Shown: positions 3,019 to 15,743, counted from the stretch's first letter. The stretch is 32,544 bases of DNA from Gemmatimonadota bacterium (GCA_003222055.1 QHUT01000143.1:1-32544), one strand, 5' to 3'. Program-made: numbers and translations. The notes: generated from the sequence alone by a model not told the origin.

Positions 3019-7374
<4,356 letters not shown>

Positions 7375-10744: not shown

Positions 10745-13700
10745 TTAACCCCAATCTTTGGACTCCGGCGCGACGCGGCGCATGGACTTGAGAAAGGCCA
10801 TTGCGGATTGCGGATTGTGGATTGCGGATTCGACGGGCGGGTCTTCCAATCTGCAATCCGAAATCCGCAATCCGCAATGCAGTCTCGCAGCTTCTTCGGC
10901 GATGACGTTCACCGTCCCGTCGTCCTTGGCGAGCTTGCCCCGCACCAACAAGAGCGGCTCGCTGCGGATCGCCGCCCGGTATCGCTCGTACACGTCGGGC
11001 CGCACGATCACGTTCACCATCCCCGCCTCGTCCTCGAGCAGCACGAAGATGAACCCCTTGGCTGTCTCGGGCCGCTGGCGCGCCACCACCAGCCCCGCGA
11101 CTTCGACCATCGTCGCGTGCTCGCGGCGGGAGAGCGCGTCGCTCTGCACCACGCCCGGCGGCAGCGCCCCCCTGAGCAGCGACAGGGGATGGCCGCACGG
11201 CGCGAATCCGAGGACCGCGTACTCGGCGAGCAGCCGCTCGTCCGCCGCGAGGCCGCCGAACCGGAGTCCCTCGTGGGGATGGTTGAGCGCCAGCTCGAGC
11301 TGCCGCCGCACGCGGGCGTCCGAGTCGCGCGCCGCCTGGGGGGGCAGCCACAGTCCCACTTGCCACAACAGCTCGCGCCTGGTGAGCCCGAAGCCGTCGC
11401 AGCCACCCACCCACACGAGGCGCTCGATCGCGGTGCGCTTGAGCTGGGGCGGCGCCCGGCGCACCAAGTCGCCGACACTCGTGAACGGACCACGCCGCTC
11501 GCGCTCGAGTACGAGTTCGGTCGCCGTCTCCTCGCTCCAGTCCCGAACAAACCCGAGCCCCACTCGCACGGCATATCGTCCCCCCTCTCCCGAAGGGAGA
11601 GGGGGACAGGGGGTGAGGACGGTGCACCACACATCACTCGCATTCACATCCGGCAGCAGAATCACGACCCCGTTGCGCTTCGCGTCTCGTCCCAACGCGT
11701 CGAGCGAGTAGAATCCCATCGGTTGATTGTTGAAGAGCGCGCAGTAATACTCGGCCGGGTGATAGTGCCGGAGCCACGCCGACTGGTAGGCGAGCAGCCC
11801 GAACGCCGCGGCATGCGACTTGGGGAATCCGAACTCGGAGAAGGCGATCACCTGGGTGAACACCCGCTCGGCGGTCGCCTGGGGAACGCCGCGCGCCGCC
11901 GCGCCGTCGCGGAACTCCTCCCAGAACTCCGCCATCAACTCTCGGCTCCTGCGACGGCTCATCGCGCGCCGTAAGGCCTCCGCCTGGCCCGCCGTGAATC
12001 CCGCGAGCGCCTGGCACACCTGCAGCACCTGGTCCTGATAGAGGATCACGCCCAGCGTCTCCGCGAGCGCCTCCCTGAGCAGCGGATGGTCGAGGGGCGG
12101 CTCGTATGCCCGGCCGGCTTCGCGGGCGCGGCGCTGGTCTTCGCGACGCCGCACGTACGGATTCACCGCGCCGCCCACGATCGGGCCCGGACGCACGATC
12201 GCGACCTCGACCGCCAGGTCCTCGAGGTTCCGGGGTCGGGTACGGCGCAGCATCTGGATCTGCGCCCGGCTCTCGATCTGGAACAGCCCCACCGTGTCGC
12301 CCCGGCAGATGCGGTCGTAGACCGCGGGGTCGGCGAAGTCGATGCGCGAGAGATCGGGCGGCGTACCTGCGCGCGCGGCGACCAGCTCGACGCACTCCTC
12401 GACCAGCGACAGCATGCCGAGCGCCAGGAAGTCGATCTTGATGAAGCGCGCGTCGTCGCAGGAATCCTTGTCCCACTGGCACACCACCCGGTCTTCCATC
12501 GCGGCGCGCTCGAGCGGCACGATCTCGACCAGGGGCCGGCTGGAGATGACCATCCCGCCCACGTGCTGGGAGATGTGCCGCGGCAGCCCCGCGATCTCTT
12601 CCGCCAGCTCGCACAGCTCCTTCCAGAGCGGAGCGGTGCTGCGTCCCGCAAAGCCGGGAAGCTGCTCCAGCTCGTCCGCCAGTCCCCCCGACCGCCGGTC
12701 CGCCAGCTTCGCCACCTGCTCGATCTCGCCCGGCGGCAGGTCCAGCGCCTTGCCGATTTCGCGCACCGTCGAGCGCAGGCGGTAGGTAGGGAATGAGCAC
12801 ACCAGCCCGACGTGCTCGTCGCCGTAACGCTTGTAGACCCGCCGGATCAGCTCCTCCCGGATCTCGCGCGGAAAATCGAGATCGATGTCCGGCACCGAGG
12901 CGAGGGTGTCGTTCAAGAACCGCCCCAGAAACAGCCCGTTCGCGATCGGATCGATGTGCGACAGGCCGAGCAGATAGCACACGATCGACGACACCGACGA
13001 GCCGCGCCCGCGACCGGGCAGCAGGTTGGCGTGCGCCCGCCGGCTGCCGCGCCGAACGTCCGCCGCCACTTCCCGGGCCAGGTCGAACAGGTCGTGATAG
13101 ACGAGGAAGAACCCGCTGAGTCGATGGTGTTCGATGAGTGTCAGCTCTTGCTCGAGGCGCCGCACGGCGTCGTTGCGGTGCGGTGAGCCGGAGGGATAAA
13201 GCTGTTCCAGCTTCGCCCGGCACAGCTCGGCGAGGGCGCGCGGGGCGGGCGTGAGGTCCGCCCCCCGAAAATCGGGGAAGGTGTACCCCAGGTCGCGCGT
13301 CAGGTCAAAGGCCCTGCAGCGCTCCGCGATCACGGCTGTATTGGCGACAGCATCGGGACAGTCACGGAACAGCTCCTCGACCTCGTGCGGCGGCCGCAGG
13401 AAGAACTCGCTGTTCGCATGGCGCACGTTGTGGCAGCCGTCGAGCGTGGTGCGGTGCCGGATCGCCACGAGCACATCGTGCAGCCGGTGCCGCTCGCGCT
13501 TGTGATAGTGCACGTTGCCGGACGCCACGACGCCGAGTTGCAAGGAGTCTGCGAGGTCCTTCAGAGCCAGCGTGAGCGCACGATCGCCGCGGACGTAATT
13601 GCGTTGCAGCTCGATGAAAAAGTTCTCCTTCCCGAACACCGCCCGACACCGCTCGGCGCAGCGGCGGGCCGCGGCCGGGCCGTCGCGCCGCAGCACGGCG

Positions 13701-14089
13701 GGCAGCAGTCCCTTGCGGCATCCCGACAGCACGAGCAGCCCCGCGTGCCGCGCTTCGAGCGAGGCGAAGTCGAGCCGCGGGTCGCGCCGGTCGTCCCGGC
13801 CGAGATGCGCTTCCGTAATCAACCGGCACAGGTTCGCGTACCCTTCGGGCGTCTCCGCGAGAACCGTCACGTGAGAATCGTCGAGCAGCGTCAGCTCCGC
13901 GCCGGTGATGGCCTGCAGGCCGAGCTTCTGGGCTGCGTGCGCGAACGCCATCGAGCCGTACAGCCCGTCGTGGTCGGTGAGGGCGAGCGCGGGGTAGCCG
14001 AGCTGCGACGCGGTGAGCGCCAGCTGCTCGGGGAGGGAAGCGCCGTCGAGGAACGAAAACGCCGAATGGCAGTGAAGTTCCGTGTACAT
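10745..14089 (-). CDS. dnaE2: Error-prone DNA polymerase III alpha subunit DnaE2
   Basis: A 1114-residue C-family polymerase responsible for damage-induced mutagenesis with ImuB. The N-terminal PHP domain shows ELHCHSAFSFLDG and LTDHDGLYG. The palm catalytic motif is PDIDLDFP (400-407), preceded by GRGRGSSVSS. A finger block (GFPKSHAAAFGLLAYQSAWL), a helix-hairpin-helix region and an OB-fold with VAGLVVARQRPETAKG follow, and the C-terminus is the family-typical SKDWG. ATG 14089 gives MYTELHCHS; an in-frame start at 14146 would add 19 residues encoded by repeat sequence. Two repeats lie in frame: a CCCTCTCCC palindrome near residue 830, and the palindromic heptamer element at about residues 1071-1097. 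Both are in variable loops, so the polymerase may still be functional. Confidence 0.95.
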   Translation of the reverse strand: MYTELHCHSAFSFLDGASLPEQLALTASQLGYPALALTDHDGLYGSMAFAHAAQKLGLQAITGAELTLLDDSHVTVLAETPEGYANLCRLITEAHLGRDDRRDPRLDFASLEARHAGLLVLSGCRKGLLPAVLRRDGPAAARRCAERCRAVFGKENFFIELQRNYVRGDRALTLALKDLADSLQLGVVASGNVHYHKRERHRLHDVLVAIRHRTTLDGCHNVRHANSEFFLRPPHEVEELFRDCPDAVANTAVIAERCRAFDLTRDLGYTFPDFRGADLTPAPRALAELCRAKLEQLYPSGSPHRNDAVRRLEQELTLIEHHRLSGFFLVYHDLFDLAREVAADVRRGSRRAHANLLPGRGRGSSVSSIVCYLLGLSHIDPIANGLFLGRFLNDTLASVPDIDLDFPREIREELIRRVYKRYGDEHVGLVCSFPTYRLRSTVREIGKALDLPPGEIEQVAKLADRRSGGLADELEQLPGFAGRSTAPLWKELCELAEEIAGLPRHISQHVGGMVISSRPLVEIVPLERAAMEDRVVCQWDKDSCDDARFIKIDFLALGMLSLVEECVELVAARAGTPPDLSRIDFADPAVYDRICRGDTVGLFQIESRAQIQMLRRTRPRNLEDLAVEVAIVRPGPIVGGAVNPYVRRREDQRRAREAGRAYEPPLDHPLLREALAETLGVILYQDQVLQVCQALAGFTAGQAEALRRAMSRRRSRELMAEFWEEFRDGAAARGVPQATAERVFTQVIAFSEFGFPKSHAAAFGLLAYQSAWLRHYHPAEYYCALFNNQPMGFYSLDALGRDAKRNGVVILLPDVNASDVWCTVLTPCPPLPSGEGGRYAVRVGLGFVRDWSEETATELVLERERRGPFTSVGDLVRRAPPQLKRTAIERLVWVGGCDGFGLTRRELLWQVGLWLPPQAARDSDARVRRQLELALNHPHEGLRFGGLAADERLLAEYAVLGFAPCGHPLSLLRGALPPGVVQSDALSRREHATMVEVAGLVVARQRPETAKGFIFVLLEDEAGMVNVIVRPDVYERYRAAIRSEPLLLVRGKLAKDDGTVNVIAEEAARLHCGLRISDCRLEDPPVESAIHNPQSAMAFLKSMRRVAPESKDWG
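10800..10878. repeat. Palindromic ATTGCGG element inside dnaE2
   Basis: The left arm (10800-10830) is four 7-bp units plus ATT. The right arm (10848-10878) is its inverse, pairing at 28 of 31 positions around a 17-nt spacer starting CGACG and ending TTCC. It is read through in frame by dnaE2 and is a sibling of 15265-15342. Confidence 0.88.
11581..11605. repeat. CCCTCTCCC palindrome inside dnaE2
   Basis: An 11-bp perfect stem (CCCCCTCTCCC with GGGAGAGGGGG) closes a GAA loop, followed by GGGGACAGGGGGTGAGGA. In frame it encodes a proline-rich loop (TPCPPLPSGEGG) between NASDVWCTVL and the conserved YAVRVGLGF strand. Confidence 0.75.
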
Positions 14090-14092
14090 AAA

Positions 14093-14162
14093 ATTGCGGA
14101 TTGCGGATTTCGGATTGCGGATTGGATGTACGGGCATCGATCCCAACCCACATCCGAAATCG
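14093..14162. repeat. ATTGCGG element between DUF6504 and dnaE2
   Basis: The left arm of four units plus ATTGG (14093-14125) is intact. The right arm is decayed to about 14 bp (14149-14162). It lies just upstream of the dnaE2 start codon and fills most of the 73-bp gap. Confidence 0.8.
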
Positions 14163-14426
14163 CTAGGGCTTCTGCACGTACCACTCTCCGGTGATTACGT
14201 CCTCGAACAACACCACCCGCCTGCCGCTCTCGATGATCACCTCCACGTACCGACGATGGATCGGCACTCTCCACCATTCATCATCGATCCGCCAGATCTC
14301 CCCTATGTCTTCGACAGCGCGAATCTTGTATCCCGCATCTCGCATCCCGACGGGCAGCCCCTTCTCATCGAGCTCAACCTCCACCCGCTGCGGCTCGTTG
14401 ATTCCTATTAGTCGATCGGTTTTCAC
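14163..14426 (-). CDS. DUF6504-like small protein of the mutasome cassette
   Basis: An 87-residue protein between imuB and dnaE2. The sequence contains GKIR-like and DEWWRVPIHRRYVEVII segments and ends FEDVITGEWYVQKP, resembling the DUF6504 proteins found beside imuB/dnaE2 in other bacteria; their role is unknown. I prefer GTG 14426 because everything upstream in frame (TTG 14456) is repeat sequence. The TTG start would give a 97-residue protein whose first ten residues (MRISDCGLRN) are repeat-encoded. The gene is bracketed by ATTGCGG arrays in inverted orientation (14093-14125 and 14427-14457). It is same-strand with, and 36 bp after, imuB, so co-transcription is likely. Confidence 0.65.
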   Translation of the reverse strand: MKTDRLIGINEPQRVEVELDEKGLPVGMRDAGYKIRAVEDIGEIWRIDDEWWRVPIHRRYVEVIIESGRRVVLFEDVITGEWYVQKP

Positions 14427-14457
14427 ATTCCGCAATCCGCAATCCGAAATCCGCAAT
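14427..14457. repeat. ATTGCGG repeat, single inverted arm, between imuB and DUF6504
   Basis: On the plus strand this reads ATT followed by four CCGCAAT-type units, one of them CCGAAAT. It overlaps the potential TTG start of the DUF6504 gene and follows the imuB stop by 5 bp. Confidence 0.85.
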
Positions 14458-14462
14458 GTTTT

Positions 14463-15743
14463 TCAAGGTTCATAGTCGATCAACGCATACCGCCGCTCCG
14501 GGAGCCGCGACCAGGGCTGCACCTCGATCACGTGGTAGAGCAGCGACCGCTTGAGCCGGAGCTTGATCTCCTGGGCGGCGGTGCGGAGCGCGCGGCGCCG
14601 CCCGGCGCGCGCCGCGGCCTGCGCGTCGCGGGCGAACAGCTGCAGCTCGGTGGTGCCGGCGGCGAACGCGGTGAACTCGACCACCAGCCGCTCCACCGCG
14701 CCGGCGGGCGGCGACCGCTCGAGCTGCGTCTTGAGCGGTGCCGCGATGCGCTCCCGATCCGCGGACGGCTCCTTGAGCGTCGCCTCCGCCAGCCAGGACG
14801 CAGCGTGCTCGAGCTCGGCCCGCACGCGCACCACCTGCACTCGCCACCCGCTGCGGCGCGGATCCCCGAGCGCGCGGTCGATGAGCTTGTCGATCGCGTG
14901 GACGAGCAGCTCTCGCTCGCCGACCGGGGAAAAGAACGTGAGCGCGGCGACGATCGGCTCCGGTGCGACACGCCCCACCACCGGCTCGGCAATCCGCCCC
15001 GCCGCGAGCCGCCACAGCCGCCGGCCGGCGCGGCCGAACTGCGATACGACCGCTTCCTCCGGCAGCGCGGCGAGCGCGCCCAGCGTCCTGACGCCGAGCT
15101 GTCGCAGGCGCCGATACGTGTCGGGGTCGAGCGGCAGCACGGCGAGCGGCTGGGCGGCGAGAAACGTCCCCTCATCCCCGGGCTGCACGATCACGGCCTC
15201 CCCCGGCCGCGCGCGCGTGGCCGCGACCCAGGTGACAAACTTCCCCTGCCCCCACCCCACCCGGATTGCGGATTGCGGATTGCGGATTGCGGATTCGACG
15301 CCGGTATTTCCAATCCGCAATCCGCAATCCACAATTCGCAATTGGATTGCTTCAACGATCTTCTCGGGCGCACCGTACAACCCTTCCAAGCCGTCTGTTC
15401 CTACGTATGCCCGCCCCAGCTCCGCCGGCTCGATCACCGGACTCACCTGGCCCAGCGCCGCGAGCAGGCGGGAGAACTGCGCGTCGTAATGCACGGGGTC
15501 GGGCTCGCACAGCTTGAGTGCGGGACAGAGCCCGATCGCCTGGCTCACCGTCATTCCCGGCTTCACGCCGGCGTGCCGGGCGAGCGGCGACACCTGCCAC
15601 ACGCGGCGGGTATCGTCGGATCCCACCAGTGCCACCGGAAGCGCGGCGAGCTCGGGCCGCCGGGCGGTCTCACAGCGCAGCGCGAACAACGGGATCCAGC
15701 AGCACGCGGCGCTATCGCTTGTGAGAAGGGGAGTCCGGGTCAT
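14463..15743 (-). CDS. imuB: ImuB-like Y-family polymerase homologue
   Basis: A 426-residue Y-family-like protein that in other bacteria bridges the beta clamp and DnaE2 in damage-induced mutagenesis. The palm opens CCWIPLFALRCETARRPELA, and the second motif reads AYVGTDGLEGLYG. Neither shows the full catalytic acidic set of active Y-polymerases (no SIDE), consistent with a non-catalytic ImuB. Fingers (GVKPGMTVSQAIGLCPALKL), the thumb helix-hairpin-helix (LRQLGVRTLGALAALP) and a little-finger region follow. ATG 15743 was chosen over 15806 because the upstream residues are not family-like. Residues 134-161 are encoded by the palindromic heptamer element, inserted just before the RVGWGQGKFVTWVAA strand. 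No ImuA/RecA-like partner is encoded next to it. Confidence 0.88.
   Translation of the reverse strand: MTRTPLLTSDSAACCWIPLFALRCETARRPELAALPVALVGSDDTRRVWQVSPLARHAGVKPGMTVSQAIGLCPALKLCEPDPVHYDAQFSRLLAALGQVSPVIEPAELGRAYVGTDGLEGLYGAPEKIVEAIQLRIVDCGLRIGNTGVESAIRNPQSAIRVGWGQGKFVTWVAATRARPGEAVIVQPGDEGTFLAAQPLAVLPLDPDTYRRLRQLGVRTLGALAALPEEAVVSQFGRAGRRLWRLAAGRIAEPVVGRVAPEPIVAALTFFSPVGERELLVHAIDKLIDRALGDPRRSGWRVQVVRVRAELEHAASWLAEATLKEPSADRERIAAPLKTQLERSPPAGAVERLVVEFTAFAAGTTELQLFARDAQAAARAGRRRALRTAAQEIKLRLKRSLLYHVIEVQPWSRLPERRYALIDYEP
15265..15342. repeat. Palindromic ATTGCGG element inside imuB
   Basis: The left arm is four perfect ATTGCGG units plus ATT (15265-15295). The 16-nt spacer begins CGACG and ends TTCC. 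The right arm is AAT plus four inverse units (15312-15342). At 78 bp it adds 26 codons in frame. Confidence 0.9.

Follow-up and report, generated by a model that had tools for sequence, protein, structure and literature searches.

Two related insertions in imuB and dnaE2

The DNA studied here, referred to as the window, is a stretch of 32,544 nucleotides (nt) from a Gemmatimonadota bacterium (GCA_003222055.1, QHUT01000143.1:1-32544), the host. It carries imuB and dnaE2, and each of these genes is interrupted by a copy of the same short palindromic element built of ATTGCGG heptamers. A preliminary description of the sequence had reported these two complete copies, and we could confirm both their positions and their build, in which an arm is followed by a spacer and then by the inverse arm (Table 1). 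The imuB insert had also been described as lying in frame. Its frame is indeed open, and the inserts found in imuB orthologues measure 39, 57, 78, 84, 102 or 132 nt, all of them multiples of three and without a single stop codon. The copy in dnaE2 is located 3' of the OB-fold, whose Pfam match ends at residue 1065, and 5' of a conserved tail of 17 residues at the C-terminus. Residue numbers for the ImuB and DnaE2 inserts vary with the start codon that is chosen. A structure prediction for ImuB from an alignment of 10 sequences reached a mean predicted local distance difference test score (pLDDT) of 51.7, which is too low to locate the insert.

Table 1. Positions of the heptamer elements, their parts and the two interrupted genes, counted from the first nucleotide of the window
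Feature	Position	Strand	Remarks
imuB, Y-family polymerase homologue, PF00817	14463..15806	-	element in frame
imuB element, whole	15265-15342		78 nt = arm 31 + spacer 16 + arm 31
imuB element, left arm	15265..15295	.	(ATTGCGG)4 ATT, 31 nt
imuB element, spacer	15296..15311	.	16 nt, CGACGCCGGTATTTCC
imuB element, right (inverse) arm	15312..15342	.	
dnaE2, error-prone DNA polymerase alpha subunit	10745..14089	-	element between OB-fold and C-terminal tail
dnaE2 element, whole	10800-10878		79 nt = arm 31 + spacer 17 + arm 31
dnaE2 element, left arm	10800..10830	.	unit 3 = ATTGTGG
dnaE2 element, spacer	10831..10847	.	17 nt, CGACGGGCGGGTCTTCC
dnaE2 element, right (inverse) arm	10848..10878	.	unit 3 = ATTTCGG
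Third copy, immediately upstream of dnaE2 start	14093..14163	.	intact left arm 14093-14123, short spacer, decayed right arm ~14150-14163
Lone right arm, immediately 3' of imuB stop	14427..14457	.	
Lone left ATTGCGG arm in lhr	5740..5770	.	
Lone arm of second heptamer family in lhr	6432..6462	.	(AACGCGG)4 arm, AACGCGGAACGCGGAAGTCGGAACGCGGAAC

A fixed architecture with exchangeable heptamers

The preliminary description had made its proposal of a dispersed element depend on further genomic copies, and these are present. In the host genome (3.69 Mb in 173 contigs) the exact dimer ATTGCGGATTGCGG occurs at 128 sites, compared with none for a reversed-pattern control; in the window, it is found 27 times with up to three mismatches, against 3.7 expected, and none of 100 shuffles reached that number. 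Paired copies with variable spacers are spread across many contigs. In its general form, the element is a quasi-palindrome in which a 31-bp arm of four heptamers plus 3 nt, a spacer of usually 16-17 nt and the inverse arm follow each other. Spacers of this size class often run CGA..TCC or, inverted, GGA..TCG, and longer ones also occur.

The arms are sharply delimited. Among 20 host elements with spacers of 14-18 nt, arm-to-arm pairing amounts to 90-95% at the outermost arm positions, beginning with position 1, and to 15% one base outside, so that the arm must have a sharp edge. Within the arm, pairing drops at position 12 (30%) and position 18 (40%). The same two positions are affected in ATTGCGG copies from other phyla (40% and 44%), and AACGCGG copies of the genus show drops at positions 10-11 and 17-18. 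Unit 3 is typically ATTTCGG in one arm, while the other arm carries a different variant unit. The stem folds from either DNA strand, with z-scores of -6.9 to -8.8.

Period, length and orientation are also constrained. Inverted pairs in all fetched loci have a period of seven in 156 cases, as against 27 with period 5, 10 with period 6, none with period 8 and two with period 9; those of period 5 and 6 are of near-minimal length. Arm length has its mode at 31-33 nt (four units plus 3), whether the set comes from the host, from the genus or from other phyla. With regard to polarity, the left arm reads ATTGCGG in 97 of 97 pairs, AACGCGG in 34 of 34, AATGCGG in 15 of 15 and AGTGCGG in 8 of 8.

The preference for four units could be taken to reflect the formation of a G-quadruplex (G4) from four G tracts, as has been proposed for the Xanthomonas GGGAATC and Nostoc GGGGAYT repeats, where both four units and paired inverted repeats were reported (PMC4692102). 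However, ATTGCGG, AACGCGG and AATGCGG hold only GG and no G tract of three or more. The arm mode of 31-33 nt is kept by heptamers without GGG (302 arms), and it is still 31 nt, with weak support from 36 arms, for those without GG, such as AAATGAC and AATTACG. Because families without G tracts keep the arm length, G4 formation is not a general explanation, and we give it next to no credence.

Copies of the element reach well beyond the host. The genomes considered here are metagenome assemblies, some of low completeness. Genus mates contain between 0 and 38 exact ATTGCGG dimers. Of 150 genomes drawn evenly from the phylum, only seven, all of the same family, showed the paired ATTGCGG pattern. 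Named bacterial genomes hold at least 119 ATTGCGG stretches, among them genomes of Acidobacteria, Planctomycetota, Omnitrophota, Chloroflexi, Nitrospirota, Gemmatimonadota, Bacteroidota and others, and 15 further stretches lie on putatively viral contigs from a viral collection. The same architecture occurs with about 40 other heptamers (for example AAATGAC, AGCTTTC, ACGAGTG, AATTACG and CAGGAGT) in the fetched loci; the cross-phylum loci were picked by the ATTGCGG pattern, and the other heptamers are bystanders in them. The element is therefore more than a local insert of the kind known as Rickettsia palindromic elements (RPEs).

Orthologous sites keep the element and change its heptamer

For 22 host elements, the flanks were used to search the genus, and orthologous stretches could be read at 17 sites. 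Most of these sites are occupied in most species, but the heptamer found there differs, being of the ATT, AAC, AAT or AGT type. In each of the 81 elements read there, the left and right arms agree in their heptamer. Since orthologous elements with other heptamers share the architecture, the ATTGCGG heptamer itself, on which the preliminary description had based its definition, is not the defining feature.

Each genome prefers a particular heptamer. Dimers of ATTGCGG, AACGCGG and ARTGCGG number 128, 9 and 46 in the host and 7, 148 and 1 in G009, a sister species whose flanks are ~85-95% identical to those of the host. The corresponding figures are 0, 4 and 155 in G004 and 5, 4 and 184 in G006. 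The uniformity of the host at the studied sites results from their selection by ATTGCGG in the host, and the host was left out of the permutation test of heptamer against genome. This test gave 198 concordant pairs compared with a permuted mean of 109 (p ~0.0002; this p value and the next take sites as units although the species are related). Where the heptamers differ, spacers of the same site are nevertheless more alike than spacers of different sites (p ~0.001), so a site has in general not simply been hit anew. Empty orthologous sites do exist, for example at the operon junction C16_96 in G009, G005 and G003.

Both insertions in the window are shared with another genus of the family. In imuB, G024 from that other genus has an element at the position of the host element, and its spacer and those of G008 and G007 at this site are homologous to the spacer of the host. 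At the dnaE2 site, G143 from another genus has an element at the same position with a nearly identical spacer, in which CGACGGGCGGGTCTTC is identical. A further junction has an ATTGCGG element in common between the host and G172. As the imuB and dnaE2 sites are common to another genus, these insertions must be old, and the idea that the two copies reflect a recent spread has to be given up.

These observations bear on an explanation that needs no dedicated machinery. Polymerase slippage would make the heptamer arrays, template switching during replication would make and keep the palindromes, and the preferences of species would be drift. Among the long simple sequence repeats (SSRs) of many bacteria, heptanucleotides prevail, and their origin by slippage is a published suggestion (PMC4679880, PMC4692102); units and arms are homogeneous within elements, and single arms exist, all of which this explanation would accommodate. 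However, arm length does not vary as in slipping arrays and keeps its mode over some 40 heptamers. The polarity is near-absolute, with 154 of 154 pairs for the four main heptamers, where template switching should yield both orders. In addition, ATTGCGG recurs in other phyla with the same mismatch positions, and sister species differ by a genome-wide heptamer switch. We consider slippage unlikely.

A few sites show further rearrangements. By eye, the imuB spacer of G001 (L084) resembles the reverse complement of the spacers of G009 (L082) and G005 (L087), which suggests that the loop has flipped its orientation. At a tgt/queA-type junction (s18), G002 (L331) has a CCCGGGC-type palindrome where its relatives carry heptamer elements, and G004 (L320) likewise has another palindrome at site s17. 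Junctions of this type seem to accept several kinds of element.

Elements within coding sequence

Several conserved genes besides imuB and dnaE2 contain the elements. In comF, the insert is 78 nt long in all copies but one, which has 93 nt. In a gap-free alignment of the comF stem, both partners are altered in 10 of 31 pairs, with a covariation score of 0.309 as against 0.130 in shuffles and at most 0.080 in slid controls. In all eight genomes examined for hflX, the two arms enclose a stretch of 126 nt that codes for part of HflX and contains the NKAD motif, and the heptamer switches on both sides of it. The arms in ksgA similarly bracket ~72 nt of coding sequence with the GDAL motif. Since the spacer in hflX and ksgA is host sequence, the arms must have changed in pairs around it. 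The arms in hflX and ksgA are always in frame, and each orthologue tested has an open frame. Arms code for peptides such as LRIADFGLRIG and NPQSAIRNPR. The elements also explain the peptides NPQSAIRNPQS and GLRIADCGLRI in translations of these genes.

Thus, comF, imuB, hflX and ksgA offer natural replicate sites, at which arms are rewritten while spacer and reading frame are kept. The proposal that the element spreads through coding sequence holds in that conserved proteins tolerate it in frame; it does not hold for the many copies that lie at gene junctions rather than in coding sequence.

It could be argued that the hairpin acts as a functional RNA or a cis-regulatory element (acting on mRNA stability, or as terminator or attenuator) under selection, in which case the compensatory changes would reflect selection on the stem. 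This would fit the conservation of sites across genera, the compensatory pairs in comF, the strong folding and the frequent location at gene junctions. Against it, compensatory selection does not work by switching whole arms, all eight units together, at the majority of sites in a genome. Moreover, copies lie inside the genes of unrelated proteins, and some orthologous sites are empty. A search of the window with Rfam covariance models gave no match. A functional RNA seems quite improbable to us.

Local duplications within inserts were seen twice, in both cases with the frame kept: the comF insert of G007 (L096) has 15 extra nt (TCAAAGTTCCGCGTT), and the imuB insert of G006 (L089) has an extra AATGCGG arm.

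Relation to known repeat families

No named family with this heptamer architecture had been known to the preliminary description, and neither the exact DNA repeat nor its peptide was matched in the literature searched. Nevertheless, the kind is not wholly undescribed, because repeats of four heptamers and of paired heptamers have been published from Xanthomonas, Geobacter, Nostoc and others. The Xanthomonas GGGAATC repeats prefer four units and form 70-75 convergent inverted pairs per genome, which were read as G4 motifs (Rehm et al. 2015, PMC4692102). Going by the published description, they and the Nostoc GGGGA(C/T)T repeats resemble the present elements in the seven-base unit, the preference for four units and a location close to stop codons and in intergenic DNA (PMC4692102). 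They differ in being read as G4-forming SSRs with a variable number of units, whereas here the palindrome is the unit, the arms are fixed at 31-33 nt even without G tracts, and orthologous sites switch their heptamer.

In Geobacter metallireducens, likewise compared by description only, Gmet_H4 (GGACCGG) comprises 49 scattered elements, each with four heptamers in tandem, that are found both inside genes and in the intervals between them (PMC2700814). They are described there as predicted regulatory RNA elements, and the text consulted mentions no pairing, heptamer turnover or orthologous sites. The P6b stem of the Nostoc tRNA-Leu intron is built of Class I TDNGATT and Class II NNTGAGT heptamers, one repeatedly replacing the other (PMC4476775). 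It is thus a heptamer-built hairpin stem with replacement of the class in place at similar structure, but it represents one group I intron locus, while the present elements are found genome-wide, in coding genes and across phyla. The TAACTGA repeats of Beggiatoaceae are another heptamer case (PMC4679880).

By analogy with these descriptions, the present family can be assigned to the heptameric repeats of Xanthomonas, Geobacter and Nostoc: it has tandem 7-nt units, preferably four of them, and convergent pairing in a fixed order. Earlier work has recorded such repeats case by case, variously as SSRs, as G4 motifs, as regulatory sites or as intron stems. Our data suggest that they represent one architecture across many phyla that is independent of sequence. 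Two questions thereby become testable, namely the dominance of heptamers among the long repeats of bacteria, and the existence of dispersed short repeats that are alike within a genome and different between sister species.

The comparison with RPEs, which had been made in the preliminary description, applies in part. RPEs are larger and are not known to be heptamer-periodic. Like the present elements, they are palindromic and lie in frame in conserved proteins (Ogata et al., cited in PMC6649704). Their arms lose identity over time (PMC6649704), while the present arms stay matched. In-frame insertion without stops, as in RPEs, was found in all imuB, hflX and ksgA orthologues tested, and the comF inserts measure 78 or 93 nt. 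The likeness therefore extends to a defined, high-copy palindrome that is tolerated in frame, and not to a recent spread.

REPINs likewise consist of inverted repeats that are paired around a variable spacer and present in high copy number; they are non-autonomous and leave single copies as relics (PMC3116915). The halves of a REPIN are REP palindromes tied to RAYT genes; neither is true of the present elements. A REP/REPIN family mobilised by a RAYT (TnpA-REP, Y1) would agree with this outward likeness and with the Y1_Tnp genes in the host genome. However, the element-rich genomes G001 and G007 (93-94% complete) have no Y1_Tnp at all, and three host RAYT loci that were examined adjoin other inverted repeats, of the CCCCGGGC type in L127 and L144, instead of heptamer palindromes. 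Not one ATTGCGG-type pair was present at 30 RAYT loci, the end tags GTAG and GGAG occurred in 0 and 1 of 152 flanks, and the arms are tandem heptamers and not self-palindromic REPs. The lack of Y1_Tnp in G001 and G007 and the other inverted repeats at RAYT loci make mobilisation by a RAYT very improbable.

As a separate observation, the CCCCGGGC-type repeats next to the RAYT-like Y1 genes of the host (L127, ~1395-1469 and ~1892-1973; L144, ~1889-1919) resemble ordinary REPINs. The target-site duplication expected for a miniature inverted-repeat transposable element of a DDE transposon was not seen at 76 elements.

A possible mode of copying and arm conversion

Taken together, the fixed size, the fixed polarity and the recurrent mismatches argue for a defined hairpin that is recognised by some factor, and the genome-wide heptamer preference with retained spacers argues for a rewriting of the arms in place. 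On balance we lean, with some reserve, towards dispersed REPIN-like hairpins that are copied in trans to permissive sites and whose arms are rewritten under a genome-wide concerted turnover. A non-autonomous hairpin similar to REPINs and RPEs would be copied to permissive gene junctions and protein loops. Resident arms would then undergo conversion, with other copies of the same genome as donors, and the partner arm may be realigned by hairpin-templated (quasi-palindrome) correction; some factor would perform both copying and arm conversion in trans. Hairpin-templated correction is a known replication error in quasi-palindromes. It is also discussed in PMC6649704.

Several points weigh against such copying and conversion. 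A mobilising gene and an autonomous copy were sought and none was found; no convincing arm pair surrounds a transposase in ~1 Mb of fetched loci, in which distant pairs were not checked gene by gene. Target-site duplications are missing: in the flanks of 76 elements, direct repeats 2-9 nt long are no more frequent than expected by chance. There is also no strong flanking consensus. Evidence for recent movement is indirect, because the sites are old and mostly shared and the empty ones could be losses. Simple insertion of a unit leaves the arms around host coding sequence unexplained, and the conversion would be confined to the 31-nt arms without a demonstrated mechanism. Finally, the metagenomic origin and partial incompleteness of the assemblies apply here too.

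A more far-reaching and only tentative proposal is a sequence-agnostic hairpin system. Its rule (arms of 31 bp with two internal mismatches, made of four and a half units at a period of 7 nt, and a fixed polarity) would be conserved across phyla, and each species would have the heptamer replaced throughout its genome, in place and on both arms, which would imply an undescribed trans-acting machinery for copying and conversion. We rather doubt that it holds in this form.

Further copies in the window

The third copy with a decayed right arm before dnaE2 and the single arms 3' of imuB and in lhr, all noted in the preliminary description, proved to be real. The AACGCGG arm in the same lhr gene had been missed. 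It belongs to a second heptamer family. Another common family in the host is AAACGGG (together with AAAGGGG), which forms pairs and single arrays (L018, 1683-1786; L032, 6342-6419; L043, 473-512).

The arms at 14093 and 14427 bracket an open reading frame of 97 aa between imuB and dnaE2, and matching arms do so in G009 (L082) and G006 (L089). The arms face inward in all three species (window 14091-14459; L082:3801-4131; L089:2037-2410), and their heptamer is species-specific, being of the ATT type in the host, AAC in G009 and AAT in G006.

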